Positions 3,915 through 62,159 of a DNA stretch of 64,000 bases are shown here, piece after piece (within the stretch, counting starts at the first letter, position 1; every line of letters begins with the position of its first letter). Position numbers and translations under genes: made by a program. Source of the stretch: Tomocerus qinae (Eukaryota; Arthropoda; Collembola; Entomobryomorpha; Tomoceridae); contig CM034546.1 of assembly GCA_020055645.1 (NCBI GenBank), positions 51,522,001 through 51,586,000 on the forward strand. The letters are read 5' to 3'. The notes beneath the pieces are model-generated. The model saw nothing but the letters and a program-made list of their open reading frames with translations. It searched no databases and had not been told where the DNA came from.

Positions 3915-6213
3915 ATATTCAAATTTTTGGCAAACGATTTAAATCTTAAGTACAATGCTACACTGCTCTAGGTTACGATAAATCAAGAATAGATACTGGA
4001 AATGGAAATAAAAGATCAGATACTAGAATTTAAGTTATTTAAATAAATTATTATATTTAAATTATTATTTAAACTATTAAACCAATTTTGGGTTACATAG
4101 TTTCCTGGTCTAGGTTAACCAAGAACAGATACTGAAAATGAATATATTATTTTGACGTTTATATATAAACCTGTGCGGAAATTCAAACTGCAGTTGCTAC
4201 TATAATATCAATGAGAATATTATCGATTACTCCTATATTTATTTTGTACATGAAATGATTATTATTGCACTTATCATTGCATTATTGCATCGTTTAATAC
4301 TATGGGTAGTTATCAAACACGGAAATATAATTAGTTATATTATGTATAAAGTGTGATAATAAAATAAAATGTGCATATCCGTGTTCATTATTAGTTCGAG
4401 TGGTAAACTATATACTTAATACTTACCAGCATACAGCACTAAGTCCAGTAGCTAAAATAGGAGTTACTAAATTAATTTAGCCATTGATCAAAGTAAAAAC
4501 TAGATTCCTACTTACTTAGCTTTGTACTGGTTACAAAATAATATAAAATGAAGTAAATCCAAGATTAATGCATCACTTTTAAGCTCTGTAAGATTTTAAT
4601 CGGGCAAGTCATCATTTTGTATATGATTATGTCTTGTGAGTTAAACATATAAACAGAGATGGTTTGAAGACCATGCAGGTTACATTATTTAGGGTTTAGA
4701 TAAGGTGTGATCCAAGTTTTAAGATATACAATTTAGCCAAATTTGTAATCATTGATCTTGAAGGAAACAGAACATGGTAAAGGTGTGGCTACATATCACT
4801 GCTTCTAATAAATGTATTAACAACAATTGTGTTACAGTCTGGAACTCCTCTACAAGGACTACTAATAAGACTATTAACGTTAAACATCATAGTAACAAAA
4901 TATTATCATCCCATCAAATAGGAAAAAATTGCTTTAGTAGGTCCCTTAAGTAAATTATCGTCCCTTAAGGAACCATTTAGCTAAAATGCACTTTTGTTTG
5001 ATGCATTCGTGCACAAGTGCATTTAGACTATTTCGTAAACAAGAAGTGCAATGAGAATTGAGGCTCAATGGATGCAAAACGGACGATATGTAATTATTAG
5101 ACGTTTAAGAAGCCAAATATGCATGATATTACTTTAGGTCATGCATTTATGTAAATTCAATAACATTATCGTTTGTCAACATTGCACTTATATGTCATGT
5201 TTTTACTTCGAGCTTGTTCTCATAACAACTTATTCTTATATGATAGTATAACATTAGTTATTACGCCATGCTAAAAAGAAATCAAATGCCAAGTGTTACT
5301 GCAACATATAGTTTTAATATGTGATGTGAACATTAGCTTATAAACAACTTTTTTAATACTGCATACTCACTCACTTCCTTTTCAAAACAAATACCTAATA
5401 ATTTTTCACAAGCAATCTATAAATATTTCTGGAAAAAATTAATTCCAAATATGTAGTGTAATATTATTGTCCCTTAGGTATCAATTACGCTATGTTAAAT
5501 TTCAGTTTGGTGACTTAAGATGGCCCAAAATCAAAAAATTTCAATTTTCCTTGGATTAGAAAAAGATGACAATTGAATTTTTTCATTTGGGGTTATCTTA
5601 AGTCACCCATTTACGAAACCAGACCTCAAGACATTGCTGAATGCAAGCATTGTATGTAGCCCGAGTTGCAAGGATTACCACGATGAAACTCTTTAACTTT
5701 TTAAACTTACTGGGATAGGCGAATATAAAAGGTAGTTACATAGAGAATTTGCAAAATTTAAGAAATTAAAATACATGGAAAAATCCCTTATGTAACTAAC
5801 CATGTAGAATCCTATAGAACAGTTTTATTTAGAACCAATTTTATGTAAAAAATTTCCTTATTTTTAAAAATGCCACACTCAGAAATAAACGGCCTCCAGT
5901 CAGCCAGTAGTAAATTAATTTAGTACAAATGTCTCCTTTTTCTGTGTTAAGATTAGTTATCCAGGGTTAAAATGCAGATGAAAATATAATTTTCAAACAA
6001 GTTAAATTTATGTTTCAACATGAGTCATCCAAATGGAATTAAAGTTGTAAAATTTAAAAAAATTATATTTATTATTTATTATAAAAATTTCATGTTTATA
6101 TTATACATGTTATTTATAGTATTTTTATTTCATGTATATATTTTTATTTTAAGTAATTTATTTATAAATAATTATTTACATTTTAATTTGTAGCGGTGGG
6201 AATTTATAAATAT
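3915..6213. other. Spacer between lipocalin-like copies 2 and 3
   Basis: It contains the copy 2 promoter remnant: a TATA-like run at 4158-4168, now about 245 bases from the old start because the segment tctaggtt...agatact is locally duplicated. From about 4120 to 5460 the sequence is clearly homologous to the spacer after copy 3 (7150-8141 continued at 12983-13200). A small hairpin sits at 5509-5607. No cellular gene is visible. Confidence 0.6.
5509..5607. repeat. Small hairpin repeat (MITE-like)
   Basis: Two arms of about 37 bases, beginning ggtgacttaagat and ending with its complement atcttaagtcacc, face each other around a short loop. It has no coding capacity. The flanks show no certain target duplication, so the transposon class is open. 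Confidence 0.5.
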
Positions 6214-8279: not shown

Positions 8280-8583
8280 TTTTGTTTGTGTGCTCCACCG
8301 ATCGCACGTACCCTGACCGGGTCCTGAAAATATCCGATTTTCACATCGATTTTCTTAAAAGGGACCCTTCGGTAAGTAATATTTATACTAATTAAGACTG
8401 TGGCCGCCCGAAAAGGTATTAATTGTAAAAATTAATGTTTATTTATCACTAAAAAAGTGCATTGCTAATTTGATGATTGAATATTAGCTTTCCAATATGG
8501 CGGACGCTGGTCTGCATCATATTACCTTTCATTAATAAATAACTAATTTGTCGAACGTCTAGCTTTGTGTTGCTTTCAGCACT

Positions 8584-9642
8584 ATGTGTAAACATCGCCA
8601 TAGGAGATCATCATCTCGAAGCTCAGATATTTCATCCTTGAAAGGAGAAGTTGAAAGATTAAAAAATATCGTGAAATCCATTGCTGGTGACAGAAGACGT
8701 AGGTCTCAGTCACGCAGAACTTCAGCTTCTCCAACATCACGAAGTTATTCTACTGACTCGGATAGAAGCAGATCGCGTAGTCGATCAAGGCGGTCTGAAT
8801 ATTCAGAAGCCTCTAAGTCCTACATCGAAAACAAATTCGATGGTAGAGCAAAGTCAAACAGTGCAAATGGTGAAGAGTCCGAAGATGTATTAATCATACA
8901 TGAAGACTTGGACGATAAGACTAAAGAAATATTGGGTACACCACCTACTAAACCAGTTGAATTCGGCCTTCCCTTGCATAAAGAGATATCAGCCAGATGG
9001 GAACCATTGGCTACTCAGGGACTCAAGTATGATGACTTAAAGGATTTGTTGGCCAAAAATCCAGTCCCAGAAAACTGCACTCTCATCTCTGCTCCGATGC
9101 TGAATGTGGAAGTAAAAGCCGTGTCAACGGACTTCTGTAACGAAAGAGATACCGAAATATTTAAATTGCAGCACCAAAATGCGTGTGCAATCAGTATCAT
9201 TGGTTCAGTAATGACCTCGGTAATCAAATCAAAAGAATCAATTAAGGGGGACATGAAAGAAGTTTTATTGTCTGGCCTGAACGATTCATCTAAACTTCTC
9301 TGCGATTTGCAGCATAAGCTTTCTAAGCGAAGAAAAAATTTGCTCTCGTCCAACATAAAATCTAAAATAATGAAATCAGCTGTGACTGACAGTCAAATTG
9401 ACAAATTTCTTTTTGGTTCTGATTTCGACAAAAAGATTAAACATGAAGAGGATATGGAGAAGCTGGGGAAAAATTTTGTACCAAGATCACAGAAGCCTAA
9501 GTCACAATATGAAAAGCCTAGAGCTCGCTCTAATGTGCAAACTTCAAAGCGAAGTTCTTTAAACTGGCAAGGCCCCTCCCGATCTTCTCGGAAAACTCCG
9601 AATCAATACAACCGGAGGGGCAACTACCGATCCAAACACTAA
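8584..9642 (+). CDS. gag: DIRS gag-like protein
   Basis: A 352-residue open frame from an ATG just inside the left terminal repeat. The N-terminus is rich in Arg-Ser (RRSSSRSS, RSRSRSRSRR) with a short predicted coiled segment (LKGEVERLKNIVK). The C-terminus is strongly basic with RSS and RGNYR tracts. This matches DIRS-type gag proteins, which have a charged, low-complexity nucleic-acid-binding tail and no CCHC knuckle. The final part overlaps the pol frame, which lies -1 relative to it, so pol is probably made by frameshifting or by internal initiation. Confidence 0.8.
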   Translation: MCKHRHRRSSSRSSDISSLKGEVERLKNIVKSIAGDRRRRSQSRRTSASPTSRSYSTDSDRSRSRSRSRRSEYSEASKSYIENKFDGRAKSNSANGEESEDVLIIHEDLDDKTKEILGTPPTKPVEFGLPLHKEISARWEPLATQGLKYDDLKDLLAKNPVPENCTLISAPMLNVEVKAVSTDFCNERDTEIFKLQHQNACAISIIGSVMTSVIKSKESIKGDMKEVLLSGLNDSSKLLCDLQHKLSKRRKNLLSSNIKSKIMKSAVTDSQIDKFLFGSDFDKKIKHEEDMEKLGKNFVPRSQKPKSQYEKPRARSNVQTSKRSSLNWQGPSRSSRKTPNQYNRRGNYRSKH

Positions 9643-9725
9643 GCAGTTCGCCAGAAGTAAGTAAACATGGAGGTAGACTAAAATATTTTGTCAACAAATG
9701 GGGTGCTTTAACAAAAGACCCAATC

Positions 9726-11534
9726 GTGTTGCAAATAGTGAAAGGATATCATTTGCCTTTTCTTTCATTGCCAAGACAAACCAAGGTTCCTAGATCTACC
9801 ACTATTTCAGATCATTTGAAAATGGAAAAGTCCATATCTGATCTTTTAAGTCTGAATGCAATAGAAGAGTGTATGCCTGTTGAAGGAAGTTTTTTCTCTC
9901 CCATATTTCTAGTACCGAAACTAAATGGCACGCAGAGGTTTATACTAAATCTTAAAAGGCTCAATAGATTTTTAAAAGCAAGTCATTTTAAAATGGAGGA
10001 TTATCGCACTGTTAAGCAGCTGATCTTTCCTAATTGCTATTTTGCATCGATTGATCTAAAAGATGCGTACTTTTTAATTCCAATTTATGAAGGACATAAA
10101 AAGTACTTATCGTTTAAGTGGAACGGGAAATATTACAATTTTGTGTGTCTGCCATTTGGTTTGGGATCAGCACCCAGAACATTCACAAAGTTGATGAAAC
10201 CAGTAATTGAAGCTCTGAGAAAACGCAACATTCTTTGCTGTATTTACTTGGACGATATTCTCATCATTGCAAAGAATAGTTTTGAATGTGAAAATTCTGT
10301 AAAAATTACAATGGCATTATTAGAAAGCTTGGGTTTCATTATAAACAGAAATAAGTCAATTCTTATACCAACACAAGAAATTACTTATTTGGGATTTACT
10401 TTCAACTCTGTGGAAATGACATGTTCTTTGCCCAAAAATAAAAAGGACAAAATTCAAAATATGTGCCTAAAGATACAAAGTGCAAATATTCTGAAGATCA
10501 GAAAATTTGCCGAACTCATTGGGACACTTGTTGCAGCTTGTCCTGCAGTCGCTTATGGGCTTCTGTACACCAGGAAACTTGAGAGAATAAAAGTACTTGC
10601 ATTACAATCGTGTAACGGTTCTTTTGAAGGTCAAATTAAAATAACCAAGGAAATTAAAAATGACTGCCAGTGGTGGTTTGAGAATATTCAAAACTCTACG
10701 AGCAAAATATCCAACGATGAATTTGAAACAGAAATTTTCACAGATGCCTCCACTACTGGTTGGGGTGTTTATTGTAATGGGCAGAAAAGTAACGGGTTTT
10801 GGTCAGAAAAAGAGAAAGTACATTCTATTAATTATTTGGAATTATTGGCCGTACTTTACGGTCTCCAAACTTTTGCAGACAATTTAGAATGCTGTCAAGT
10901 TCTGCTAAGAATTGACAACAAGACTGCAATATCCTATGTTAACCGTATGGGGGGTTGTAGGTTTCCTAAGTATAATGATTTAGCTAGGCTCATTTGGAAT
11001 TTTTCCGAAAAAAGAAATATTATGTTAAAGGCCTCATATATTCCTTCAAAGGAAAATTTTGAAGCTGATAAAGAGTCTAGAAAAGATGCCTCTACTACTG
11101 AATACGAACTAAATAATAAGTATTTTTCTTTATTAACCAGCGCTATTTGGTTCCCTGAAATTGACATATTTGCATCTTCCAATAACACAAAATGTAAAAA
11201 GTTTATTTCGTGGCATAAAGATCCCAAATGTTGGAAAGTGGATGCATTTACCACATCCTGGAAGGAGATGCAATTCTATGCATTTCTTCCATTTTCTTTA
11301 ATATTAAGATGTTTAAAGAAAATAAAATCAGAACAAAGCACTGGCATTGTTGTAGTGCCCTACTGGCCATCTCAGCCTTGGTTTCCAATATTCATGGAAA
11401 TGGTAGTATCTGAATTAGTTTTTATGGGACCTGCTAATGATCTTCTTTTATTGAACAATAGAAATCACAATGTGAACAAGAACCTTACCCTGGTGGGAGG
11501 ACTCTTATCAGGAAATCACTACTCGCCCAATTAG
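9726..11534 (+). CDS. pol: DIRS reverse transcriptase / RNase H
   Basis: The frame is open from within the end of gag (in-frame text HGGRLKYFVNKWG precedes 9726) to 11534, with no ATG at its head. The reverse transcriptase shows FILNLKRLN, SIDLKDAYF, LPFGLGSAP and the catalytic YLDD box at about 10249. RNase H follows with TDASTTGWG, LELLAVLYG, RIDNKTA and a final ADKESR acidic residue. After it comes the DIRS-typical block IDIFASSNN...DAFTTSWKE..FYAFLPFSLI...PYWPSQPWFP. The last bases overlap the recombinase frame, which is again -1. It would copy the RNA into the circular DNA used for integration. Confidence 0.92.
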   Translation: MLQIVKGYHLPFLSLPRQTKVPRSTTISDHLKMEKSISDLLSLNAIEECMPVEGSFFSPIFLVPKLNGTQRFILNLKRLNRFLKASHFKMEDYRTVKQLIFPNCYFASIDLKDAYFLIPIYEGHKKYLSFKWNGKYYNFVCLPFGLGSAPRTFTKLMKPVIEALRKRNILCCIYLDDILIIAKNSFECENSVKITMALLESLGFIINRNKSILIPTQEITYLGFTFNSVEMTCSLPKNKKDKIQNMCLKIQSANILKIRKFAELIGTLVAACPAVAYGLLYTRKLERIKVLALQSCNGSFEGQIKITKEIKNDCQWWFENIQNSTSKISNDEFETEIFTDASTTGWGVYCNGQKSNGFWSEKEKVHSINYLELLAVLYGLQTFADNLECCQVLLRIDNKTAISYVNRMGGCRFPKYNDLARLIWNFSEKRNIMLKASYIPSKENFEADKESRKDASTTEYELNNKYFSLLTSAIWFPEIDIFASSNNTKCKKFISWHKDPKCWKVDAFTTSWKEMQFYAFLPFSLILRCLKKIKSEQSTGIVVVPYWPSQPWFPIFMEMVVSELVFMGPANDLLLLNNRNHNVNKNLTLVGGLLSGNHYSPN

Positions 11535-11548
11535 TACCAGAATCTAGT

Positions 11549-12469
11549 GTGGACACAATAATTCTGTCCTTATCAGAATCAAGCTTCAAGCAATACGACA
11601 CTTACCTTAAGCAATGGTGGAACTTTTGCAGTTCAAGTAAATTATCTGCCTTAAACCCAACAGTTACAAACTTACTAAACTTTTTACAACTTAAATTTGA
11701 ACAAGGCGCAGGCTATAGTGCGCTTGGATCGGCTCGTTCGGCAATATCCTTATTAAGTAATCAAACCGAATCTTGCATTGGACAACATAAACTTATATCC
11801 CGGTTCATGAAAGGAGTTGGACGATCACGTCCACCTCTTCCTAAATACAATACTACCTGGGACCCAAAATTAGTGTTGAATGTTTTAGGAAAAATGGAAC
11901 CTCTGGATTCTCTTACATTAGAAAAATTATCTCAGAAACTGGTGTGCTTGTTGGCCCTTGCTACTGGTCAAAGGTTACAAACACTGAAAAGTATATCAAT
12001 TTCTAATATCATGGAGAAGGAGGCATCAATTGAAATTATCATACCAGATATAATTAAAACTAGCAAGCCGGGTAAACAGCAACCAGTATTAATTTTACCA
12101 GTCATGTCGGATTCAGAAGAAATCTGCCCTGTAAAAACTTTAAAGCATTATTTAAGTCGTACAAGTGGGTTTCGAAATAAGCAAGACAAGTTATTTCTTA
12201 GTTGTACCAAAACTCACCACCCAGTGTCCACTCAGACACTCAGTAGATGGGTAAAGTGTATAATGAACATCAGTGGAATTGATACTTCTGTCTTTCAAGC
12301 GCATAGCACAAGACACGCGTCAACGTCTTCTGCAGCACGTAGTGGTGTGAAAATTGATCAAATTCTTGAAAGGGCAGGATGGACTGAGTCATCTAAAATG
12401 TTCGCTAAGTGCTATAACCGTCCTCTGGACAAACGGTGTATGTTTGCCAAAGGAGTACTAAATCAATGA
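11549..12469 (+). CDS. DIRS tyrosine recombinase
   Basis: About 306 residues from the position given; the frame is also open upstream into the end of pol, without an ATG. The N-terminal SAM-like core-binding part is seen in YDTYLKQWWNFC and SALGSARSAIS. The catalytic part has ALATGQRLQTLKS (Arg I), AHSTRHAS (His-X-X-Arg) and the nucleophile in AKCYNRP, so the R-H-R-Y set is complete. It would integrate the circular intermediate without a target duplication. Confidence 0.92.
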   Translation: MDTIILSLSESSFKQYDTYLKQWWNFCSSSKLSALNPTVTNLLNFLQLKFEQGAGYSALGSARSAISLLSNQTESCIGQHKLISRFMKGVGRSRPPLPKYNTTWDPKLVLNVLGKMEPLDSLTLEKLSQKLVCLLALATGQRLQTLKSISISNIMEKEASIEIIIPDIIKTSKPGKQQPVLILPVMSDSEEICPVKTLKHYLSRTSGFRNKQDKLFLSCTKTHHPVSTQTLSRWVKCIMNISGIDTSVFQAHSTRHASTSSAARSGVKIDQILERAGWTESSKMFAKCYNRPLDKRCMFAKGVLNQ

Positions 12470-16324: not shown

Positions 16325-16596
16325 CGTCTGCCTAATATTACAATGTAACAAGCCATTTCATCATGGCTGAGACAAAGTAACAAACCATTTCATCATGGCT
16401 GAGACAAAGTAACAAACCATTTTATCATGGCTGAGACAAGGTAACAAACCTAACTCCTGATACAGTGGTTTGTTACTTTGTCGCGGTCATGATAAAATGG
16501 TTTGTTACTTTGTCTCAGCCATGATGAAATGGTTTGTTACTTTGTAGCAGCCATGATCAAATGGCTTGTTACATTGTAATATTAGGCAGACGCTAA
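16321..16596. mobile_element. Fold-back element with tandem repeats in both arms
   Basis: A near-perfect hairpin, 16325-16592. The outer ends are CGTCTGCCTAATATTAC and its complement. Each arm holds three units containing aacaaaccattt and catcatggctgagacaaag; the two arms face each other around a loop of about 16 bases. A 4-base direct repeat, ctaa, flanks it on both sides (16321-16324 and 16593-16596) and could be a target duplication. It has no coding capacity. Confidence 0.75.
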
Positions 16597-18868: not shown

Positions 18869-18877
18869 GGCTAAAAT

Positions 18878-20030
18878 GGGATTTTACAAAATGCAGACAG
18901 TTGAAACAGTTCAACAGTGCAACAGTAGCACTTACAGGGCCATTCATAAGCCATATATTACCATACAACTGTAGCACTGTTGCATACAGATTGCAACTGT
19001 AGCACTGTTGCATACAGATTGCAACTGTAGCACTGTTGCATACAGATTGCAACTGTAGCACTGTTGCATACAGATTGCAACTGTAGCACTGTTGCATACA
19101 GATTGCAACTGTAGCACTGTTGCATACAGATTGCAACTGTAGCACTGTTGCATACAGATTGCAACTGTAGCACTGTTGCATACAGATTGCAACTGTAGCA
19201 CTGTTGCATACAGATTGCAACTGTAGCACTGTTGCATACAGATTGCAACTGTAGCACTGTTGCATACAGATTGCAACTGTAGCACTGTTGCATACAGATT
19301 GCAACTGTAGCACTGTTGCATACAGATTGCAACTGTAGCACTGTTGCATACAGATTGCAACTGTAGCACTGTTGCATACAGATTGCAACTGTAGCACTGT
19401 TGCATACAGATTGCAACTGTAGCACTGTTGCATACAGATTGCAACTGTAGCACTGTTGCATACAGATTGCAACTGTAGCACTGTTGCATACAGATTGCAA
19501 CTGTAGCACTGTTGCATACAGATTGCAACTGTAGCACTGTTGCATACAGATTGCAACTGTAGCACTGTTGCATACAGATTGCAACTGTAGCACTGTTGCA
19601 TACAGATTGCAACTGTAGCACTGTTGCATACAGATTGCAACTGTAGCACTGTTGCATACAGATTGCAACTGTAGCACTGTTGCATACAGATTGCAACTGT
19701 AGCACTGTTGCATACAGATTGCAACTGTAGCACTGTTGCATACAGATTGCAACTGTAGCACTGTTGCATACAGATTGCAACTGTAGCACTGTTGCATACA
19801 GATTGCAACTGTAGCACTGTTGCATACAGATTGCAACTGTAGCACTGTTGCATACAGATTGCTACTGTAGCACTGTTGACTAGTGTAGCACTGCTGACTA
19901 CTGTGGCACTGTTGACTACTGTAGCACTGTTGACTAGTGTAGCACTGTTGACTACTGTGGCACTGTTGACTACTGTAGCACTGTTGACTACTGTAGCACT
20001 GTTGACTACTGTAGCACTGTTACATACTTT
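18878..20030 (+). repeat. Left minisatellite inverted repeat of the MULE
   Basis: After 90 unique bases, about 32 near-identical copies of a 28-bp unit run from about 18968 to 19865. The unit contains gcactgttgcatacagattg. Inside that, a shorter 18-base variant (tagcactgttgactactg) repeats about nine times to 20020. Because 28 is not a multiple of three and the unit has no stop in one direction, all three minus frames stay open; these are not genes. Confidence 0.95.
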
Positions 20031-20509
20031 TTACGCTGAACTGTTTAGGATTTAACATTGACAATATTAATTTATAAATCCTTGTTTTTTTTCGATTTCA
20101 ACTTTTATGGACTGCGTAAACGTCTTATTTTGACCACAAAATTTCCGAAAGTTTCGGAAACGGAACAATACAATTCAGGTATACGTATTTTGCGTATCGA
20201 TTGTATTTAATCAAAGCAAACGGTTTCAAAATTATTTTAAGCACAAAGCACAGATACCTCTATCGTGCTTTAGTATCTTTCAAAACTAAACCCAAATGGG
20301 ATGATTTAAATATTTTGAAAGTCAATCGTCTTACTGAACACAGGTTAGTCTTGGTTAGTTTCCAAAATACACTCAACTAATACCTGTCAATACAACCATA
20401 TTAGAGATCGGCTTTCGTTCAACCTTATTTTGATTATTTCGAACGAATTGCGGACGTCGTTTGCCAATCTGCTAAAAAAATTTACAGATATTTATTTGTC
20501 ATATTCATA

Positions 20510-23500
20510 ATGGCTAAAGTGTATATGACTTATGCCAAAGAAAAATTGACTGCAGACGTAATTCTTAAAGTGTTCAACCAAATAGATCAAACGAAGCTGT
20601 CTACGGCATTGCCAAGAAATCCTCAAAATGGAGAGGTATGAAATCAATTAGCATGTTAAAAATTAAATTTAAGACTTTGTTAAAATTTTAATAGCTTTTT
20701 ATTAACGGCCTTGCTGATTATTTGCCTTTTAGGTCTACATATATAAGGTTAATAGATATTCAAGGTGGGACGATTTTCGACATGTTGCCTCTCAATGGCG
20801 TTGTGTAACAACCCGAAAATTACCCCAAAATATGCCGGTTTTGAAGGCCCAAGTGTATAATCTACTGAATGAAGGGAAAAAAGTTAATTTCACCAGAACC
20901 ATTTATTTTGACCTAGGTACAGTAAACAATATTATGTGAAATGCCGTTTTGAAACATACTTGTAATCTAAATTTTATTATGCTATAGATGCCGGATTAAA
21001 TTTGTACACCTACTGGTTTAATCCTTATGTCTTCATTTTTTACAAGGGAAGGTTTAATTTTTGTGAAGCAACGGTCACTAAGCACGGGAATATTAAAAAA
21101 GGGAAAAGTACGAAGGCTTTACATATGGCATCAATGGAATTAAATGATCAACTGAATCCAGGCAAGTTTCCCGTTCAAACATTATATATGGTTTAAATGA
21201 TTGACATGAATACCGACTATATTACTAAACGAGGAAATTTATTTCCGTGCTTTTGTTTTTTAATAGAAAACAACTCATCAAAACATTCTACTCCCGTTTC
21301 TGTGTTTCAAGTTGGTAAGGAGTTATATTTATGTTTCCCACACTAGTTTATTACGATCTGAACAAGGTGTCGAGTGTGCCGTGAATGACGTAAATTGAAT
21401 TTACGGCATTTGGTATTTGGCGGAATGTAGTAAATGCCAAAAATTATTTTTAAGTTTTTAGCTGTTTATATACATAAATTGATGTGGGAATTGCGAAAAT
21501 AACACGCTAAAAGTGCTTTTATACATCAATATTGTGTATTAACATCATTTTAGGCCACTAATAGTGGCTGTAAAGCTTTGAAAAGGGAAAACTCATTTTA
21601 TAACTTATGACAGTTATCATTTATTATAAAATGATCAAAATTAAATTTTTTTATTTTCCATAAGTTAAAAATTACCATTAAACTGTCTATTACGTGTATT
21701 ATGTGTTTTACGGCTTTTACGGCATGCGGCATCTGAAAATAATTTACGGCCGACTTTATACTCTGGATCTGAACCAATTAAACAATAGAATTCTTGAAAG
21801 AATTCGCTGGAATAATTTACTTGTTGAAACAATATAATTTTTCGAATAGCAGATATTTGAATATATATAAAGGGTAAAGTAATTTAATTTTCGAAGTTAT
21901 TTATAGATTTATCATGGTTACAGTGGTCTACTAGGTTCTACTACGCTTCTATACTATTTTTCTTAAGGTTTCAAAAACCAAAATGTTTAAACATGAAAAT
22001 AAGTAATGTGTATGGCTTAGACATAAATTTCGAGGTCTTCAACTAAAAATACAAGTGTGGATTAACTGATATTTCATGGAAATTTTCCTATTTTCTCTAG
22101 GAACCTTTTAAATCCATAGGATTTTTATAAAAACAAATCACATTTATACGCATATAGTAAAGAAATTGTACACCAAAAATCAAAATATGCACTGCATCTT
22201 AATGGCTTTTCGGTTTTAAAATAACATATTCATAAATAAATGAAATAAATTTGAGAAGGCAGGCATACTTGAAATTGAAATGGAGGCTAATTGAGGTTTA
22301 CTATTACGTAGATACACCCGAAGATGAAGAGGAAGAAGACGTTGAAACCGATGATAGTCAAGAAGATATTATTGATGGACAAGGAGAACATCTAAATATA
22401 AGTGAAACTAAGAAAACGACGGTTGAGAATGAATTGGATTCCGACGATGATGATTTCACAGAAGTCCCATTTAGTAAAGGGCATATAAAAACACATGCTT
22501 CTGTGACCACTTTGATGGAAAGTAAATTTAAAAGCAAAACAAATGCCAGTCCTGCAAACGTATACAGGTATGTCATAGTCAATATTAAGCGATGAGAATT
22601 TGTGTCTCCATAATAACTGATAATGTATAATGTATACATAAATCACAATTTATGTTAACTACAACGTATTGTGATTTAATCATATTTGTCATATCTTAAC
22701 CTTTTGCTTTCATCTTGAAAGATGAGAAAGCGCATTAGTATTAGAACCAAACCAAATACCGTAAAATCTTAATTCTGAATTAATTCAATAGAGTGAACGA
22801 TGGTAATCATCTAAAAAATAAGTAGTTGATTCCGGAAAAGTCAACTAAGGCGATTTCCGTGAAGTATTTTTTCATGTGATTTATTTTATTAGAATTAGTT
22901 ATTATAAAACAAATGAAAGGGAGTGTCAAATTATTGAAATGTAAAATAAAGAACATAAATATCAATTATATTCAGTTGTTTTTAGCGTTTTCAGTGGATT
23001 TTCATTTTCAGAAGCAAAGCAATGGACACTCCCTACATAATGCTACACTTTCAAATAAGCTATTCCTAGTCAATCCCATCTATTTTATAATTGTCTTTTC
23101 CATCATAACATAATTAGATTACCCTGAACATCATATTATTATTGATATTCCACTAATTCACATACCAAAGGGAATCAATTATTTCGAGGAGGGTCAACCA
23201 TTGTTGAAGGAGCTTGTTTATAAGAAAATATAATAGTTGATCCGGAAGGGGTCAACTATTATCTAATTAATTCGAAACTTACGGAATATGGTTAAAGAAG
23301 TAAGCACTCTTAATCGACTGAGAAAAGCGATAAATCATAAGATATCTAGAAATATAAGATATCCATCTACAACGTGTCAGATTTATTTCTCGTTACAATG
23401 TTTAAGGACTAAAAAAGAAAACTAAAAAGTTTATGTTCTTATTTATGTTTACAATACTTTTATGATAAAATTTCATAAATAAATTTTATCCACACGGTTT

Positions 23501-25623
23501 AGAAATTTTTAAAGAAAAGTATATCATAAATTTATTTTCTGAAAATTGGTAATGAATATTATTAGTAGTATATATGAAGTAACCCCATTTTTTCCTAATG
23601 CAGCACTAATTGACATTATAAGTTTATTATGCTATTTATTGAATTGTCATAAATGCTTGGGAAGTTATAATTTATATCGAAATTTTTAGGGAGGCCGTAG
23701 AAGAGACTTTTAATGCCGAATCAGTTCCAAGAAACAAAAGGCAGGCTTACTATATAGCGGAAAAACTCAAAAAAAGCGTTACTCCTGCTGATGATTTATA
23801 TGCCGCATTCCTTTTTGCAAGGGCCTATCCAGAAATAGTCCATGATTATATTGCAGCCACCAGCGAATCAAAAGGGTTAATTTTCACCATTGCTCATCCG
23901 GAAGTTATACGCCATGTCAATAATTTATTGAAACGAGATGCTGTATTGGTTTTTCACTATGACACCACATTTAATTTTGGACCGTTTTATACCACCATTC
24001 TTACTTTGAGACATCCACTCATAGTTGGGGAGCCATTGATACCAATTGCATTTATGCTTCACGAAAAAACAGCCACTGGTGCTCATTACAGGTGTATGCA
24101 GACAATGCTGCATCTGGTGCCAAGGATGAATAGGAAAGACACTGTAATTGTAACTGATAGGGAACAGGCTATAAATAAGGCGATCAAAGATATTCTTCCT
24201 TTGACAACAAACTTGTTTTGCTGGAACCATCTAAGAAGGGTAAAATATTATATTTAAATTAAGCTACAGGGCAATTACTTATGATGATTTCTTATTGCAT
24301 TTAGAACGTTGGAGATTGGTGTACCAAAAAAGGTTATAAAACCACTGAGATTATAACTCTCAAAAATGATGTGTTACAGCTTCTTCAAAGTGAAAATATT
24401 GGTCAATTTGACGAAATAATCCATGAGAAAAGTCCTCTGTGGGATAACCGTTTTAAGTTGCATTTCGAAAAATCTTTAAAGGAAGCCGTGTTTGCAACCA
24501 GAAGAGAAGTTTTGGAGATGTATGAATTATATAGCTCCAACACTGGTATTACAAACAATCCTGCTGAATCTATGAATGCTGCGGTTAAAGTTGTATTGGA
24601 ACACAAGGAGTCTTCCTTCAACGCAGCAATTCATGCAATGTACTTGTACCAGAATAGGATAATGATGGAGGTGTCCCGTTGCTCCGATGGTTTAGGAGAT
24701 TGGAAATTAAAAGACGATAGACAGCCATTCCCAAAAGTTACAGTTTTGGAGGATATCGTACATCCGAATGAAATTTATCAAATACTTGTCAAGGGAAAAA
24801 AAACAGTTGCCGAAAAATCGCTTGAAGATTTACGCACTAAGTACAACTTAAAAACGGAGGAAGGTTTAGCAGAATATTTTATTGCAAAGGATCGTATCAA
24901 TTGGATTCCAAAAGATGGCATTTTTGTTGTCAGGGGACTAAGATCACAATATTATGTGGTAAAAGTTAACGTATTTTTGGTAATTTTTTGGCTTCGATTA
25001 TTATATTTATTCCTAAGCGTTGCATATCGTTTTATTTTTTAGGTAAATCTGGCTCAAAGAAATTGTACATGTCTGCGTTCTGGATTATGTTGCCATTTAA
25101 TAGCAGTTTTGAAAACTAATGGTGTGCATTTGCTTAAAATGTCAATTATTGCTTGAGAAGTGGCGAATTTCATGTTTGATTTGTATTTTTAGGCCTATAC
25201 AACACCCTCCACTATAAGAAACCTATTTATAAAACTGGAAACATAGGAATGCTTTACAGAAAGACTGCAGCAAAAGCTACGGGAAAAAAGTCAGGTCAAA
25301 ATATAGGCAAAAGGCAAAATCTTGGTTTTAAACGACGAATTGCTTCAAATAAATCTCAGGAAGTAACAACCTGCAATGAAGCTGAAAGAAACGGAAATGT
25401 AAACATTTCTGATATAAACGATTTATCTGCCAAAACGTTTGAAAACGATATTCCTGCCGGTAAGCGTATTGCAGTTTTAAGATCACATTTAAAAGTCGGA
25501 TTAAGCTGGTATTTTTTTATGGAAAGTCCCTTAAGTTATGATATATGCAAAATGAAATTTCGCAATATGAAAATTGTTTCAAAAAGTAGGCAATGTATAT
25601 TCACCCTACCACCAAAAATTTAA
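20510..25623 (+). CDS. MULE-type DDE transposase, nine exons
   Basis: My model: 20510-20635, 20733-20916, 20988-21161 (GC donor), 21267-21314, 22312-22567, 23690-24239, 24305-24958, 25043-25121, 25193-25623. The phases close to 833 residues. The N-terminal part (KVNRYSRWDDFRHVASQWRC) is a putative DNA-binding domain, followed by a very acidic linker (EDEEEEDVETDD). The catalytic core has the first Asp in HYDTTFNFG, the second in VIVTDREQA, and the Glu in NNPAESMNAA, with the usual PLIPIAFMLHEKTATGAHY between. The conserved CWNHLRR follows the second Asp. A SWIM finger (NCTCLRSGLCCHLIAVL) comes next, then a basic C-terminus. No stop breaks the core. The exon 3/4 and 8/9 borders are the least certain. 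Confidence 0.8.
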
Positions 25624-26067
25624 ATTATGCAACGAAAGTTTTTTTTGCGTATTTTGATAAATCCAAAATTGTTTGGAAATAAATTAAATGTATTAAACAA
25701 CTCTAACTCCTTGTGAATTAGGTAAAATTTTTCTTTTATTTTAGTAAACAGCATCAACATGTATTTTATTTTTACGTATCAAATGAAATTGCACATTGCC
25801 TATTTTCGTTGTTAGCTCTAAGATGCATATTTGTTATTATATCTTAAGGGACGTTACACTATACTGAAATTTATACAACAATTATTCATCATGACAAAAT
25901 GCTTTTATTGTTAGATGCAAAAATGTTGGCCAAAGAGGATGCCCATGCTGTTAACGTTGACAATAATGATGATACCAAAAAAAGTCAACTAGAAAAAAAT
26001 AAAACCTGTAAGGATAATTCTATCGCTTCTTGTGAGCAGAAAATTACTGAGACTGCTAAGTTTGATA

Positions 26068-27696
26068 ATGATTAATGATAAAGGATTAGCAAAAAAACGG
26101 TCACAAAAAGGTAACTGAGATTTCATAGAACTATATAGCCCAACTAAATACTTAAGTGGAATATCCCTGCATTTGTGAATTGTATTTTTGTAGATGCAGA
26201 TTTAGAATCCAAATTTGTATTGCCAATTTTGAATAAAACAAACGCAAACATCGAAATTTTACAACAAGGTCCTTATTCGTTAAATTTGATCGATTTGAAA
26301 TGCCTGCAAAATGAGCTAACGAGGACGGAGCTTCGAATGATATCAACATTAGAGAACAATAGTGAAGAAAACCAGGTTACGTTTTTCCGTGTTGGTTGGA
26401 TAGGAGACAAAGTTATTGACTCATTTCTCCACAAAATAACGACCGACACAAAATATGTCCCAGTAAATTGCAACAGCAGTTTAATGGTGCACAAAGGAGC
26501 TGATACGACAAGAATTTTTAAGAACGACTGTGGTAAAGAGAGCCTCTATAATTGGAATGATGTTAAAGCTGTAATCTTCCCTGTTCTTGATGTTGACCAC
26601 TGGGTGCTACTAGTTATTTATCCGAATGACCATAAAGTGTTTGGTAAGTTTTGAAATTTTAAATGTTTCAAGCATCGCTAAAATGCAAAAGTTGGAAAGA
26701 TGTTCTTCCTACCAATGTGCCGTTTTTTCACATTGACATTTTACTGGGACTAAAATCTTATATATTTTGACATGACATTTATTTTGGGTACATGAGAAAT
26801 TGTACATTTCCAGTTAGCTCCCAATCCCCACATTAGCTTAGATGGTGATAAATTAGATGAGGTAGTAAATATACTTTGAATGACCACAATTTTCTAGATA
26901 GTTTATTCTAGGCGGTAATAATAAAAATTATAAATTAGACTTCCTTTACTCAAAACTAAGTCACTTCATTTCGTATGGCTTATCAAGTATAAGCATTCAC
27001 GCAAAATATAAAGTTTAAATTTATGTAGGCACTAACTTTGATTTGGCATTGGCACTAAGTAATTCCATTTTAAAGATTTCTCACTTCCATTTAAACCAAT
27101 ATTGTCATAATCCAACCGAACCAAAGGGCGGGATACGGAGACTTCTATCAAATTTCTAAATTAAATTCAAATTATTTTTAAATTAAAACAGATAGGTACA
27201 GATGGATACAAATAATTAATGTTTTTCAAAAACTCATAAAGTAATACGTAGTAACTATATATATTATTTTTGCAGTTTTGAATTCCTTGCCTGAACACAA
27301 ATTTTCCAACGGAGCTGTAAAAAAATTTACCACCGTTATTGATAAAGAAACAGGAGCTTCATGTAAGTGGGAAATTAAACGACCTCGTGTTAAAAATCAA
27401 GAAAAGGAATATGATTGCGGTGTGGCAATATGTTTTTTGGAGAGTGTATGGTCAAGAATTACGAAGTTCATGGTGACCTTGAATTTAGCTCGTATCGTAA
27501 ATATATTTTACGAGTCATCATTGGGGATTGTGATCCATTTGCTGGGAAAGATAAAGAAAAATTCTGTCACAGATGCTTTGAAAATCGCGATGAGAGGAAG
27601 GAGAATGGCACAGTTTGCTCTCGTTGCAAGAGCTACTTGCATAAAGATTGCTGCATGGGTATTGACGACAATTATTGTAAACCACACCACCAATAA
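26068..27696 (+). pseudogene. Ulp1-like cysteine protease with PHD-like finger, one frameshift
   Basis: Exons 26068-26110, 26194-26643 and 27276-27696, about 304 residues if one base is missing. The C48 (Ulp1/SENP) core has the catalytic His in DVDHWVLLVIYP, the oxyanion Gln in KNQEKEYDCG, and the Cys in YDCGVAICF. The acidic triad position reads VLNSL, Asn where the family usually has Asp. Just after ICF the frame changes at a run of six T (27433-27438). The downstream text GECMVKNYEVHGDLEFSSYRKYIL is the expected continuation in the next frame, so this is a one-base loss or a homopolymer read error. The C-terminus is a Cys/His finger (FCHRC, VCSRC, LHKDCC, YCKPHH) of PHD type. An acidic open stretch at 25923-26075 may be a further N-terminal exon. 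Confidence 0.7.
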
Positions 27697-28399
27697 TTAC
27701 ATGACTTACTTAATTTTTACTAATCATCCTCGTGTTCCTCTTGGAGTTCATTTAATTAAATCTGTTAATACACATTGGTAATATTTCTATTTCTGAAAAC
27801 AATAATTTAAAGTGTGATTATGCAATAAATGTTGTTGCTTCATACTGAATATTAAAATTTGATATTACGGATTTGATATCTCATTATTAAAAAATATATT
27901 GTGGTATTTCCCAATTAAATTCTTATTTAAGATTTACATTTCCTCCTAATTCTTACACATTAATTTAAATTTTGTTTAACATTTTGTTTGTAAAGCCTTC
28001 CTTTCCACACAAGTGTTTATAGCAATTATTTGGGTATTAAAAGTCACTATTAAAATGTCAATAATTAAAGTTATGGTGAATTGATCTATGTGACCACTGT
28101 AACTACCTATAGCGATTTGAAATATTATGAGACTATTGTAAACAACGTTAATTTTGGGGAATTGAATTATGTGACCAATAAATTGCAATTACAAATTAAA
28201 ATCGATTCAAGTTTATGTTTTGTCTCATTAACAGCCACGCGAAATCATTATTATTATTATAGCAATTATTATTATGTTGAACACCCATATTATGATGATG
28301 CCTCGGCTTTATAAAACTTTTAAACAAAATTAACTTTATGGATTTAAACCAATTTTTGTAAACTGGTTACAAAAGTTTTCTTTGAATATTTTCCAAAAG
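27697..28399. other. Interior non-coding part of the MULE
   Basis: AT-rich sequence between the protease stop codon and the right repeat array. It holds tat/att-rich runs (tattattattatagcaatta) and no supported gene. The corresponding left interior, 20031-20509, is the presumed promoter region of the transposase and shows no clear TATA box. Confidence 0.5.
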
Positions 28400-29264
28400 T
28401 TTCGTATGCACGTACGTGCATGCCTACTGTATGCAACAGTGCTACAGTTACAGTAGGCAACTATATGCAACAGTGCTACAGGTGGCAACTATATGCAACA
28501 GTGCTACAGTAGGCAACTGTATGCAACAGTGCTACAGTAGGCAACTGAATGCAACAGTGCTACAGTAGCAATCTGTATGCAACAGTGCTACAGTAGCAAT
28601 TTGTATGCAACAGTGCTACAGTAGCAATCTGTATGCAACAGTGCTACAGTTGCAATCTGTATGCAACAGTGCTACAGTTGCAATCTGTATGCAACAGTGC
28701 TACAGTTGCAATCTGTATGCAACAGTGCTACAGTAGCAATTTGTATGCAACAGTGCTACAGTTGCAATCTGTATGCAACAGTGCTACAGTTGCAATCTGT
28801 ATGCAACAGTGCTACAGTTGCAATCTGTATGCAACAGTGCTACAGTTGCAATCTGTATGCAACAGTGCTACAGTTGCAATCTGTATGCAACAGTGCTACA
28901 GTTGCAATCTGTATGCAACAGTGCTACAGTTGCAATCTGTATGCAACAGTGCTACAGTTGCAATCTGTATGCAACAGTGCTACAGTTGCAATCTGTATGC
29001 AACAGTGCTACAGTTGCAATCTGTATGCAACAGTGCTACAGTTGCAATCTGTATGCAACAGTTGCAATCTGTATGCAACAGTGCTACAGTTGCAATCTGT
29101 ATGCAACAGTGCTACAGTTGCAATCTGTATGCAACAGTGCTACAGTTGCAATCTGTATGCAACAGTGCTACAGTTGTATGGTAATATATGGCTTATGAAT
29201 GGCCCTGTAAGTGCTACTGTTGCACTGTTGAACTGTTGCAACTGTCTGCATTTTGTAAAATCCC
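28400..29264 (-). repeat. Right minisatellite inverted repeat of the MULE
   Basis: The same 28-bp unit as on the left but inverted, about 20 copies from about 28620 to 29175. One unit is shortened at 29058-29072. Several inner copies are diverged (taggcaactatatgcaacag) toward the element centre. The outer unique 90 bases match the left end. Long open frames here are products of the repeat. Confidence 0.95.
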
Positions 29265-29273
29265 GGCTAAAAT

Positions 29274-36309: not shown

Positions 36310-38643
36310 ATTAATATCAGGGCATGAAAAAGGCAAAAAGCTACCATTTTGCTTGCCTTTTTGCCTAGCAAAATCAGCAAAAAGCTACCTTTTTGCCTTT
36401 TTGCCTTTTTAAAGTTAAATGGGGTGATAAGCAATTGACATGTTGACAACCAAGGATGTGAACGACAAATACGATTTTAAAAAACAGCAATTCTTAATTA
36501 TCTTATTATCTTAATCTTCAGTCGGTCATTCATTAGACAGTAAAACAATCGAAAACAACAAACTAACATTTAAGCAATTTTAAAATCATGAGGAAAAAAA
36601 CAAGAACCTAGAGCTGTTCTAACCAGTAACAGTCAAATACTGGATATTTTGGTTGAGTTGATATATCTCATATAATATTGTACACAATACACAGATGTTC
36701 GACCTGGCTCATTTTTTATTATACGGTTTGTCAGTTGTCACAAATACATTATAGTTCATTTTGAATTGTGTAGTATTAGTAATAAATAGTTTAATAATCA
36801 AAAAATCTAACTAGCATCTGACAGATTTTATTTGATATAGGTAAATGTTTTTCCCGATGGCTTCCAAAATGCCATTTCCCTGTCTCTACATGTGGGGAAT
36901 GTCAATGGCAACAAACAACTTTCAGGAAAAAAATCATTTTTGACCCTGTCAGTAGTTATATGAAAAAAACCTCTTAAAAAGGAAAGCAAAATAACTTTTG
37001 AATCCCTGGACGGATTTTGATGAAACTTGGTATGGAGAACCGCCATAAGTATATCTCCAGAGGTATTTTGAAAGAGCAATAACGTTCCAGTTTTTCGATT
37101 TCAAAAGACCCGGCAGAGTTTAAAAAAGTGGGTTTTTTTGGGTTTTTACCAGAAATAAAAAGTTTTTTCGAACATCTGCTCGGTTCAAATTAAAGAGATT
37201 ATCAAACTACACTTTGAAGGCATATCAAGTATTTCACTGTCAATGACCCCCGCCCGGTGTCAAAGGTCAAAACTTGGTATTGTGAAGAATTTCACCGTCT
37301 GAGGTATCAATCGAAAGCTAACAAGGACCCTGATGTCGCTAAATCCAATATTTGGGCTAATAATGACCTCTAAAAGAGTTTACGGGTCATATAATGCAAC
37401 CATACTTCAACATAGATGTATCTGAATACTCACAAAATCGCGACATAATTCCGAAAAAACATGCACATTTCTTCATATTAAAGACCTCCATGTGTCATCT
37501 AACATGCTTTTGGATGTCATTCGGACATGAGAAAAGCGCAGGTAACTATTACGAATTCACAAACTAGGGTTATTAGTCACCTTTAATTGTACAGTAACTC
37601 GTACTCAGAATCCAATTTAATGCATAGGCCCGTGCCCGGCCATGTGTATACTTAATGCATGGAAGGAAATGATATTATGAATCGTCATTATATATTGAAA
37701 TTTCACTTCCCTCCGACCCAGATTGGCATGTTAACGTGACAAATGACATTTAACGATATGTTAGATGACACTTTGTTGCGTTTAGTATGCAGAAATAGGT
37801 ATATTTTTGGGAATTATGTCGCAATTTTGTGAGTGTTCTGATACATCTATGTTGAAGTATGGTTGCATTATATGACCCTTAAACTCTTTTAGAGGTCATT
37901 ATTAGCCAAAATATTGGATTTAGCGACATCAGGGTCCTTGTTAGCTTTCGATTGATACCTCAGACGGTGAAATTCTTCACAATACCAAGTTTTGACCTTT
38001 GACACCGGGCGGGGGTCATTGACAGTGAAATACTTGATATGCCTTCAAAGTGTAGTTTGATAATCTCTTTAATTTGAACCGAGCAGATGTTCGAAAAAAC
38101 TTTTTATTTCTGGTAAAAACCCAAAAAAACCCACTTTTTTAAACTCTGCCGGGTCTTTTGAAATCGAAAAACTGGAACGTTATTGCTCTTTCAAAATACC
38201 TCTGGAGATATACTTATGGCGGTTCTCCATACCAAGTTTCATCAAAATCCGTCCAGGGATTCAAAAGTTATTTTGCTTTCCTTTTTAAGAGGTTTTTTTC
38301 ATATAACTACTGACAGGGTCAAAAATGATTTTTTTCCTGAAAGTTGTTTGTTGCCATTGACATTCCCCACATGTAGAGACAGGGAAATGGCATTTTGGAA
38401 GCCATCGGGAAAAACATTTACCTATATCAAATAAAATCTGTCATCTGCAATTTATCTGAATATTTGAATGTGTAGGACGGGACAGTCTACAAAAGTTAGC
38501 TTTAATGAAGTATCACAGGTGGCGGTGACTACTCCAAAAAGGCAAAAAGCACAAAAAGGCAAAAAGGTAGCAAAAAGGCAAAAAGGTGGCTTTTTGCCTT
38601 TTTGCTAGCAAAAATGCAACCTTTTTCATGCCTTGATTAATAT
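36310..38643. mobile_element. Palindromic hAT-type element, 2.3 kb
   Basis: The element proper is 36318-38635. The ends are CAGGGCATGAAAAAGG and, inverted, CAAGGCATGAAAAAGG. It is flanked by a perfect 8-bp target duplication, attaatat (36310-36317 and 38636-38643). Many gcaaaaaggcaaaaag units line both ends. Inside lies a large palindrome: arms about 36819-37506 and 37752-38443, almost identical in their outer halves and diverged toward the centre. The same 83-codon open frame therefore appears once on each strand; it is not a gene. The inner palindrome may be a separate element nested in the hAT element. Confidence 0.88.
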
Positions 38644-50263: not shown

Positions 50264-53200
50264 ATGGAGCCTATGATAAAAAACAATTTTGTCTACCTGA
50301 GCGAACATCTGCAAAACCTTCCTCAAATTCTAAATCATCTGATCCAGAAAAATATAATTTCTATTAACGAAAGAGAAGAAATTGTAAGCCAATTTTAAAT
50401 TCCTTTTTTTAAATAGGTTTCATAATAATTGACGTTCACGTTGGCACTTTTGGTGGGCAGAACATGAACAAGGTACATGGACTATTTATGTTGGCCCACC
50501 AAAAGTGCCTAACCGTGAAAACGTCAATTCTGAATTGTAGCAAAGAATTACATTTTCACAGATCCCTAGTTTAGTCTTTAATTTAATCCCAACGCACACA
50601 AATTGTTGTCCCATCATATATCATATTGCGCTATGCTTAATTGACATTTGTAATGTTTTTTAAGATTTTGCCACACAAAACTCGTCTGACGCAGACGACC
50701 GATCTGTTAAATCTGCTTCTCAAAAAGGAACCCTCTATTTCTGATGTCATTCTAACCATTTTTAATATCACCGGAAATAAAAGCTGTGTTGATGTAATAG
50801 AAGGAAAATATTCTGACGCAACTGTAGAATATTCTTTTTGCCCATTAGAGAAAAAATGGTGGCCAGAAGAAAAATCATTAGTGAATTCCTTCCACGAAAG
50901 ACGAAATTTAAATGGAGTTCTTTTAGTTGAAGAATTATACGCTGAATTGATTAGAAATACATGCAGCATGACTGTAATTAGTCAAAAGGTTACCGTATCA
51001 GGTTTCGGAGGAGTTGGGAAGACAACAATGGCGAAATGGTACGCTTCCTACTATCAAGAAGAGTACGAGCAAATAATTTGGATCGACTGTGGCGAAGGCA
51101 GTTTGTATTACTCTTTCACCAAATTATTTGCAGATTTAAACAAACGGATGCCTAAACAGGATCAGATGACCGATATTCTTAAAAACATGGCACAGTCTTG
51201 TTTCGAAATGTTATCTAATTGCAAATGTCTTTTAATTTATGACAATGCAGAATGTTATGTTGGATCAGAAGGGATTAAAGACGTTCTTCCTCCAAAAAAC
51301 AACAGAAATTTCCACACAATAATTACCTCTAGAAATCGGGACTGGGGACATCAAACTGGCTATGGGAAAATCGAAGAATTTCATTTGGATGTTTTCAATG
51401 AAGAGGAAAGTGTGGCTTTTTTCTCAAACAATCTAATTATATCGTTCCAAAAGTACCAATTAGTAGAAGTCGCTCAATTATTAGGCCATTTACCTCTCGC
51501 TCTTCAAATTGCCGTTGCTGCACTAAATCAAAAGAAAATTTCACTCCGGGACTACATTGTCAGAATTGAAAATACAGATGTGATCGTCAGTGGCCTGGTT
51601 ACATTGGATGATTATGAAAAGTCGATTTGTAAAACAATGAGTGTTTCTTTGGAACTGATTCGTAAGAATGAATACTTTGGAGAACTGGCAAGCAACATAT
51701 TAAAGTCACTGGGTTACCTACGTCCTGATGACAATGAAGGCGAGTTGTTTGCAGAAATAGAAAATGTTCCTTTGGAGCAGGTAGAAAATGCAATCGATTT
51801 ACTAGATCAGCACTCACTGATATCTAAAGTTGTGAAGGATTTTGGTGTAATTACTGTCACAACAGTCAATATCCATAGATTATTGCAGCAAGTATTACGC
51901 TACAACGAAAAGATGGACGAAATAAATATTTTGAAGAAAGTTCTCGGCTGCGATGGATTTTTGCACTACAAATTAGTTCCATATATGCATTTGGAAAAGG
52001 AAAATGCAAGACAATTTCAAAACGTGAAAATTCAATTAATGGAACGATTGCATCTCAAAGATTTCTTAAAGGAACGGAGGTTTAACGAAGCCACGAAACT
52101 CGCACACATGATATTGCTTGATCATTACAAGGGCGAGTCGTCATCGGGAATCAAGAAATTGAAAAAATGTGCCCCAAACATAAAACAGTTTTTTAAAGTC
52201 AAAAGGAAATGCAATAAAAACCCATTGAGTTATGCTGTCAGTCTTTATCATTATGGAATTTGTTTGTACATGGAAAGACGGCTTGGCGAATGCTTAAAGG
52301 TTTTTGAGGAATTAGTATCCCTTTTAAAAACTTTCCCCCCTGACAGTTTTGACTCGGATAATTATATGCAAATTTTAGAGGGCAAGGTCTCAATGGTTGC
52401 TGCAGAATTATGGTTAATACATTTGAAAGTTCAAATGGGTCTTTTACAGAAGGACGAAATATTATCAAGTTGTGCAAGTAATGACGAACGTAGAAATATA
52501 TTGGATTTGTCTGGAAATTCTGACAGCATCCCTATCGATCTCAATTTGCTGCAAGTAAGAAATACAGCCAATATAATTTTAAGAGGACTTAACATTCTCT
52601 ACAATGAAAATGACAAAAATAAATCATTCTTGTGCGACACTACATTCAAAAGTATAATCTTTAATCAAACAACATTTGTCAATTCAGACAGAAGCGCAAT
52701 TGAAGACGTAATTGATTTCAATGACTTACCATACAAATCCGATCAGATTGAAATTTTTGATTGCAAAAATAGAATTCATGTTAATTTGCATTTGTTGCCA
52801 CCATCGCTGACAAAACTTTCGGTGCAAAATGTGAGTCTAAACTTTAATACACACGAGCGCAAAATCCCTTGTTTACTAACGTCACTGAAGCTGATAAATA
52901 TCAGCCAAGAAATCAATATTAATGAGTTCATTTCCGATTGTGAATGTTTAGAAGAACTCACTTTGGCGAATTCTCAGTTTAATATAAATTTTTTTTCTCT
53001 CCCATCGTCTCTATTGACATTAAAGCTAATCGATATTGAATTATGCGAACAGAATTTCACTTCAATGCCACCACATGTGATAAACCTACAGTCCCTCTCC
53101 CTTTCTGGTTATTCATTGAAGGATATTGAAAAAATTGTTGAGATTATCCATTGCGATATGTTAATAGTCCTTAGTTTCCGCTATGACGAGTGTGAGAAAT

Positions 53201-61900: not shown

Positions 61901-62159
61901 GAATTCCAGGAACCTAGGCGGATCTATTACCAGGGAATTGGAGAGTAGGCGGTGTTACTGGAAATTTTCCTATTAATTTTTCGATGCCTGGATACAATAG
62001 GTTATTAAATTACAAAACAAGCTATTACAATGTACAATAGGTTATTAAATGATAAAATAAGTTATTAAGTTTTACAAGCTCGTTTATTTCCGTTCCAAAC
62101 ATTTTAAATGCTGTCTTAGATTTTGCAACGAACAACCGTCTTTCTTTTGTAAGTTAGCA
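58964..62159. other. Spacer between the chemoreceptor copies
   Basis: AATAAA at 59023 probably ends copy A. The stretch to about 59230 is duplicated after copy B. At 60320-60360 a run of 12 G followed by C-rich text and acgtggttgattcag resembles an old transposon end. The upstream block of copy B begins near 60395 but is split by about 1 kb of unrelated sequence (about 60600-61575), including A-rich gccaaaaa tracts at 61380-61560. The open frames at 61240-61641 and opposite come from these low-complexity tracts. Confidence 0.5.

Follow-up and report, generated by a model that had tools for sequence, protein, structure and literature searches.

What do long tandem arrays do for a mobile element when they form its very ends, and what moves such an element? 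The question is raised by a 10,387-bp element at positions 18878-29264 of a 64-kb stretch of DNA from the collembolan Tomocerus qinae, the whole of which is called the window hereafter. An earlier note on this DNA had described the element as a member of the Mutator superfamily with array ends of the Foldback type, a description with which the inverted arrays and a Mutator-like element (MULE) core recognized by Pfam are in accord. We consider it quite probable that this is an autonomous-looking transposon of that kind, whose transposase would recognize both a terminal domain and the array units that follow it.

Termini and arrays of the window copy

The limits of the element are set by a perfect 9-bp target-site duplication, GGCTAAAAT, found as claimed earlier at 18869-18877 and, identical, at 29265-29273 (both on the forward strand). 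Just inside it, the two inverted termini start with exactly the same bases (GGGATTTTACAAAATGCAGACAGTTG) and show one mismatch over their first 141 bases. The left terminal domain (18878-18961, forward strand) consists of a 26-bp outer terminus and a subterminal part, and imperfect versions of the array motif occur in it in either orientation; its counterpart on the right is an inverted end domain of about 85 bp (29177-29264, reverse strand). According to Tandem Repeats Finder (TRF), the left array comprises 32.6 copies of a 28-bp unit, CAACTGTAGCACTGTTGCATACAGATTG (18966-19878), and is followed by an inner array (19862-20021) in which a related 18-bp unit occurs 8.9 times, both on the forward strand. 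The right array (28449-29176, reverse strand) has 21.9 plus 4.4 copies of the inverted 28-bp unit, which vary more toward the interior of the element. The count of about 32 units first given for the left end agrees with this; that of about 20 for the right was somewhat too low, and the earlier note did not mention the inner array of 18-bp units. The inverted arms are 614 bases long with 96% complementarity, far beyond chance, and arrays make up 18% of the length of this copy.

The 28-bp unit resembles the terminal domain. Its alignment with the 84-base left terminus of the window copy has a score of 30, whereas the highest score among 1000 dinucleotide shuffles was 26, with the caveat that the same short words abound in both terminus and unit. 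The likeness supports, but does not prove, the idea of a multiplied recognition motif, and it is on its account that we infer the arrays to be best read as multiplied end-recognition sites.

A predicted ten-exon transposase

The multi-exon DDE/SWIM transposase proposed earlier is borne out by a gene model built by hand and by eye from genomic DNA only, in which ten exons with GT-AG splice sites, save one GC donor, yield an open reading frame of 832 amino acids. The predicted exons all lie on the forward strand. Exon 1, with the ATG and a GT donor (20510-20635), is followed by exon 2 (20733-20916), exon 3 with the GC donor (20988-21161), exon 4 (21267-21314) and an acidic exon 5 (22312-22567). 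The DDE core falls in exon 6 (23690-24239), which carries D354, D419 and a C-x2-H motif at residue 440, while E534, the presumed third catalytic residue, lies in exon 7 (24305-24958). Exon 8 (25043-25121) encodes the SWIM zinc finger, and exon 9 (25193-25459) precedes an exon 10 (25915-26075) that brings the stop codon of the 832-residue form and may be an alternative last exon.

Both domain matches lie above their Pfam cut-offs: MULE (PF10551) at residues 351-446 with E 6.2e-8 and 33.4 bits (cut-off 27.6), and SWIM with E 1.7e-4 and 21.5 bits (cut-off 19.6). The IS256 model aligned at residues 404-560 with E 5.4e-6, far under its family cut-off. From the motifs familiar in MULE transposases, we take D354, D419 and E534 to be the catalytic triad. 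A FLYWCH zinc finger gave no Pfam match at E <= 10 with the HMMER filters on, and none of 7592 candidates was a homologue of the transposase at E <= 0.01. Two traits of the Mutator superfamily are thus present together, namely a MULE-type DDE core above cut-off and a target-site duplication in the range of about 8-11 bp (9 bp here).

One candidate driver and many gene-less relatives

We rejected the possibility that such arrays are unique to the window, as 22 further elements that were read at both ends share the termini. A DNA search with 182 bases returned 72 matches from the 40 candidates that were scored out of 66, all on the contigs C1, C18, C28 and C68. A 30-base end pattern, allowing three mismatches or fewer, found 60 ends genome-wide and none for a reversed control. 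A separate end scan by plain mismatch counting yielded an extra inner end in L021, and the right end of L027, which carries a 2-base insertion, was recognized by eye. Grouped by position, the 60 ends fall into about 38 loci, 35 on C1 and one each on C18, C28 and C68, of which 23 elements were read at both ends, four (L024, L025, L030 and L035) at one, and 11 are unread. The loci on C18 and C28 have flanks that are 99.8% identical and are possibly a single locus.

Forward arrays are found at both ends of 21 of the 22 other elements and at one end of the last, L031, and a perfect 9-bp duplication frames 18 of all 23 elements, the window copy included. Copies with the same ends but no genes, whose existence the earlier note had made a matter for searching, do exist: they end at the same position as the window element, and each of 17 among the 22 is framed by its own perfect 9-bp duplication. 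Of the three outcomes that the earlier note had named as refuting its reading, none was observed in the form given there. These clean duplications argue for past mobility. The transposase core is missing from all 22 (0/22), and a DNA-level search of the 334-Mb assembly with 1269 bases of the core matched the window alone; with a different query, this search mode picked up matches down to about 65% identity. Gene remnants persist in two passengers, exon 1 in L009 and the last 35 codons of a Cys/His-rich tail (discussed below) in L012, where these 35 residues retain 86% amino acid identity. The picture suggested by these sequences is that of one candidate driver and many passengers.

The passengers have interiors of two types, one derived from the edges of the window element and the other unrelated to it, and the subfamily with the unrelated interior has a terminal domain that is 8 bp shorter. 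When the terminal domain was aligned across 40 ends of 20 elements, about half of the elements lacked 8 bases near its inner edge, and the left end of L031 diverged from it beyond the first 26 bases. The two ends of one element are closer to each other than to those of other elements (divergence 0.0100 versus 0.0249, not equalled in 5000 permutations), in a test covering 17 of the 20 elements, with L011, L034 and L031 dropped; this likeness could also be explained by the shared descent of subfamilies.

Arrays that change after insertion

Across the family, an end has from 0 to 370 units, and arrays account for 68% of the combined length of the 23 elements (96,262 bases) and for up to 93% of copies other than that of the window. 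In 20 elements, 1031 of 1652 units are identical to the 28-bp consensus, a figure to be read with care since units were counted by a core motif with two substitutions or fewer, so that core columns may look over-conserved. Three insertions have been duplicated together with their surroundings, and in each the two copies differ in their left/right unit counts: 6/35 in L010 and 20/20 in L011 (left and right flanks 98.5 and 99.8% identical), 30/3 in L026 and 24/3 in L027 (95.2 and 96.2%), and 12/38 in L032 and 14/117 in L034 (98.4 and 99.8%). Arrays are therefore altered after insertion, and a block of ten units that is present twice in L032 points to slippage or unequal exchange as the means. 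A search for concerted evolution among the units of an element gave a weak signal: mean unit identity is 0.966 within an array, 0.957 between the left and right arrays of an element (16 elements) and 0.955 between elements.

Two loci deserve separate mention. L031, an element of 660 bp (5253-5912 in the numbering of its own locus), has a perfect duplication and, on its left, an end made of no more than the 26-bp terminus joined to inverted 18-bp units, which makes it a natural test of the minimal end. The array at L035/L039 on C68 has at least 352 units and is still continuing at a point 841 bases short of the end of the contig; the 563 bases next to its left end equal the right flank of L019 in opposite orientation, and L019 may accordingly be a rearranged copy.

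An Ulp1-type protease and a Cys/His-rich tail

Downstream of the predicted transposase, on the same strand, two exons (26194-26643 and 27276-27450, the second with a DCG cysteine motif) together match the Pfam domain Peptidase_C48 with E 2.2e-7, above cut-off, and match the Ulp1-like SUMO protease of PDB 6dg4 weakly (E 0.0055). They are followed in another frame by a Cys/His-rich tail (27427-27696, forward strand), the Cys/His spacing of which was judged by eye to be PHD-like; in Pfam the tail matched C1_1 alone, with E 0.0052 and under cut-off. A protease had been predicted at this place as a gene of its own. The protease itself is borne out, while its independence is an even matter: in the hand-built model, the splice from exon 9 to the exon at 26194 is phase-compatible and the fused translation is open, so that a gene of its own is no likelier than a protease that forms the C-terminus of the transposase. 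Ulp1 domains have been reported in Mutators of hydra and lancelet, and C-terminal Ulp1 domains, once with a PHD finger, in Ginger1 transposases (PMC2836005), and a fused transposase-Ulp1 reading would fit these published C-terminal domains.

Position in the genome

The largest contig of the 334.4-Mb assembly has 140.5 Mb (C1) and the next four (C2-C5) total 181.5 Mb; we infer from their size that these are chromosomes. Fifty-seven of the 60 ends map to C1, where they occupy the intervals 2.0-80.3 and 132.7-135.2 Mb, three are on small contigs and C2-C5 have none, a count based on the 30-base pattern with at most three mismatches, so that more diverged ends on other contigs are possible. Under uniform placement, and counting 32 C1 loci as independent, the probability of all falling on C1 is P = 9e-13, and the 52.3-Mb gap on C1 was not reached in any of 20,000 simulations. 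That the bias merely reflects a failure of the search elsewhere was rejected by two controls: matches to a 14-mer pattern occur at 87-124 Mb of C1 and on C2, C3, C4 and C5, and the 24 matches of a DIRS-like retroelement are spread over C1 (7), C2 (8), C3 (3), C4 (4), C5 (1) and C83 (1). On C4, the initial 14 bases of the terminus recur without mismatch six times within 0.4 Mb (7.45-7.83 Mb), and none of these sites extends to the 30-base end pattern at three mismatches.

The window also contains, at 16325-16592, a small element whose inverted arrays are built of a 32-bp unit and whose end has 720 matches in the genome. Among the first 100 of these 720, all 55 exact matches and all seven of one variant are on C1, at 6-79 Mb. 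As far as these listed matches go, a second array-ended family is also crowded on the same part of this contig, and the crowding may be a property of the chromosome rather than of an element family.

Comparison with known systems

The view that the element is a distinct and rarely described form is not supported, for Rehavkus, Tm1 and the Ulp1-bearing Mutators of hydra and lancelet are already in print. Foldback elements are described as having 9-bp duplications and long inverted ends with internal repeats, and some of them have been grouped with Mutator. The family studied here is like them in having tandem arrays as both inverted ends, with the left end of L031 as an exception, and in its gene-less copies. 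In Foldback/NOF of Drosophila, the unit and the gene organization differ from those of the window element.

Rehavkus, known from Rehavkus-1_TC of Tribolium in Repbase, is described as a 9.5-kb element with a 9-bp duplication, tandem arrays in its inverted termini and a PHD finger, and Rehavkus elements are recorded from arthropods and annelids (PMC10218199, PMC6446971). By these descriptions alone, the 9-bp duplication and the minisatellite in the inverted termini are shared, and it is to Rehavkus that the element appears most alike in build. Phantom elements have an N-terminal FLYWCH zinc finger as stated in PMC3169594, while the table in PMC6446971 gives them duplications of 8-10 bp, a zinc finger that may be absent, FLYWCH or SWIM, and in aphids a mini-satellite past the transposase open reading frame. 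The missing FLYWCH is therefore no bar to an assignment to Phantom, which lowers the odds for Rehavkus and leaves its affiliation with the window element an even matter. Compared again by description, the element is like Phantom in duplication size and in a SWIM finger being allowed, and departs from that description in its Ulp1 domain, a term absent from the text of PMC6446971. Tm1 of root-knot nematodes has variable tandem repeats of 13-15 bp in its terminal inverted repeats (TIRs), duplications of 8-10 bp (mostly 9 bp), and many gene-less members beside one autonomous element (PMC3169594). These are all points of likeness, whereas its 496-residue transposase is of Phantom type with FLYWCH, its outer 7-bp motifs are asymmetric, and the word protease is absent from the text of that paper (PMC3169594).

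Other systems share single features. Galileo, of the P superfamily, has long repeat-bearing TIRs that change in length (PMC3688188, PMC3573991), and its repeats contain sites shown to bind the THAP domain of the transposase (PMC3688188), but this is a P-type transposase and the repeats are few, with at most three of about 210 bp in each TIR of D. mojavensis. Ulp1-bearing Mutators and Ginger1 have the Ulp1 domain in common with the window element, although array ends are not described for them in the portion of PMC2836005 cited. In the VANDAL/KIU elements of Arabidopsis, the short motifs bound by VANC proteins make up tandem repeats that change fast, and one VANDAL subgroup carries Ulp1 (PMC5735166, PMC10398659, PMC13317346). 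Here too a MULE with fast-changing motif arrays has an Ulp1 domain (Peptidase_C48), but VANDAL and KIU are described as non-TIR plant elements whose arrays are VANC targets, while the window element has clear inverted termini.

How might the element move, and what are the arrays for?

In the reading that we favour, the transposase of the window copy would recognize the array units as well as the terminal domain to which they are related, pair the inverted ends, cut at the GGGATTTTAC terminus and insert with a 9-bp stagger, and would mobilize the gene-less copies in the same manner. The 28-bp units would be additional sites of recognition that either arose from the subterminal motif or co-evolve with it, and would increase the local concentration of transposase, and slippage or unequal exchange would alter their number after insertion. 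The Ulp1-like and Cys/His-rich parts would probably form a spliced C-terminal extension of the transposase, with the probable role of stripping host factors of SUMO-like tags in the course of transposition or silencing. Several observations weigh against this reading. Five of the 23 elements (L019, L021, L032, L034 and L042) are without a 9-bp duplication, two of which, L032 and L034, are one duplicated insertion. Within an element, the arrays of the two ends resemble each other scarcely more than they do those of different elements, and a normal array at both ends may, to judge from L031, be unneeded or have been lost later. The protease of the element has Asn at the position of an Asp in PDB 6dg4, which we take to be a catalytic residue there, and the reading frame shifts after the DCG motif, near 27427-27450, between protease and tail; on account of both, the protease part may be inactive in the window copy.

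The same facts lend themselves to other explanations. The arrays might represent selfish or neutral minisatellite growth, through slippage and unequal exchange, with no benefit for transposition. The range of 0-370 units per end and its changes in duplicated insertions, the repeated block of L032, the C68 array of at least 352 units and the perfect duplication of L031 despite its unusual left end all speak for such growth, which is a reasonable possibility even if short of an even one. It accounts less readily for the likeness of unit and terminal domain, and for the retention of one unit sequence over 20 elements with two interiors, although recent common origin could explain this sameness. 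It is more doubtful that the window element is an immobile relic or passenger which happened to keep its genes, the gene-less copies having been moved by another autonomous element that is lost or unassembled. The frame change between protease and tail, the presence of the core as one DNA copy, and a second subfamily with its own interior and shorter terminal domain speak for a relic, while the predicted transposase, open over ten exons with the expected triad and regular introns (but for the GC donor), does not look like one, and the ends of this copy differ at 1 base in the first 60.

The arrays might instead be sites to which an anti-silencing factor encoded by the element is directed, in the manner of VANDAL, a tethered Ulp1/Cys-His extension stripping SUMO-dependent silencing. 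The conjunction of an Ulp1-type domain with expanding and contracting motif arrays, and the reported behaviour of VANC and KIU (PMC5735166, PMC10398659, PMC13317346), would agree with this, but VANDAL elements are described as non-TIR, with arrays in non-coding and intron regions where those of the window element are its ends, and the Ulp1 active site and frame are doubtful in this copy; we consider this reading unlikely. Less likely still is an animal counterpart of VANC/KIU in which an Ulp1-bearing transposase sitting on the arrays would recruit both transposition and SUMO-removing anti-silencing, long arrays being selected and spread being confined to one chromosome or domain by local hopping or germ-line state. 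The family offers useful material: a single candidate driver with about 37 passenger loci, and ends with 0-370 units, among them copies of one insertion with unlike array lengths, amount to a natural dose series that bears on whether repeated TIR units aid transposition. Its parts are known from other elements, and it is the very long, fast-changing arrays and the crowding on C1 that make it a useful example.

Other features of the window

Two further structures in the window recall foldback architecture. An element at 53785-54870 has inverted 21-bp arrays of 5.6 and 6.6 copies (TRF) around a 760-bp middle, with no clear target-site duplication by eye, and at 36808-38454 two 651-bp arms, 98% complementary and 345 bases apart, are foldback-like and without arrays. 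A tandem pair of membrane-protein-like genes (57286-58963 and 62061-63593), presumably gustatory-receptor-like, gave no Pfam match in the three of four pieces that were scanned. An open frame of 943 amino acids at 50641-53472 contains an NB-ARC domain (E 1.1e-11). The DIRS-like retroelement used as a control above lies at 8563-12469, has a reverse transcriptase (E 7.8e-24) and a tyrosine recombinase (E 2.3e-14) in overlapping frames, and has one 97% copy on C2.

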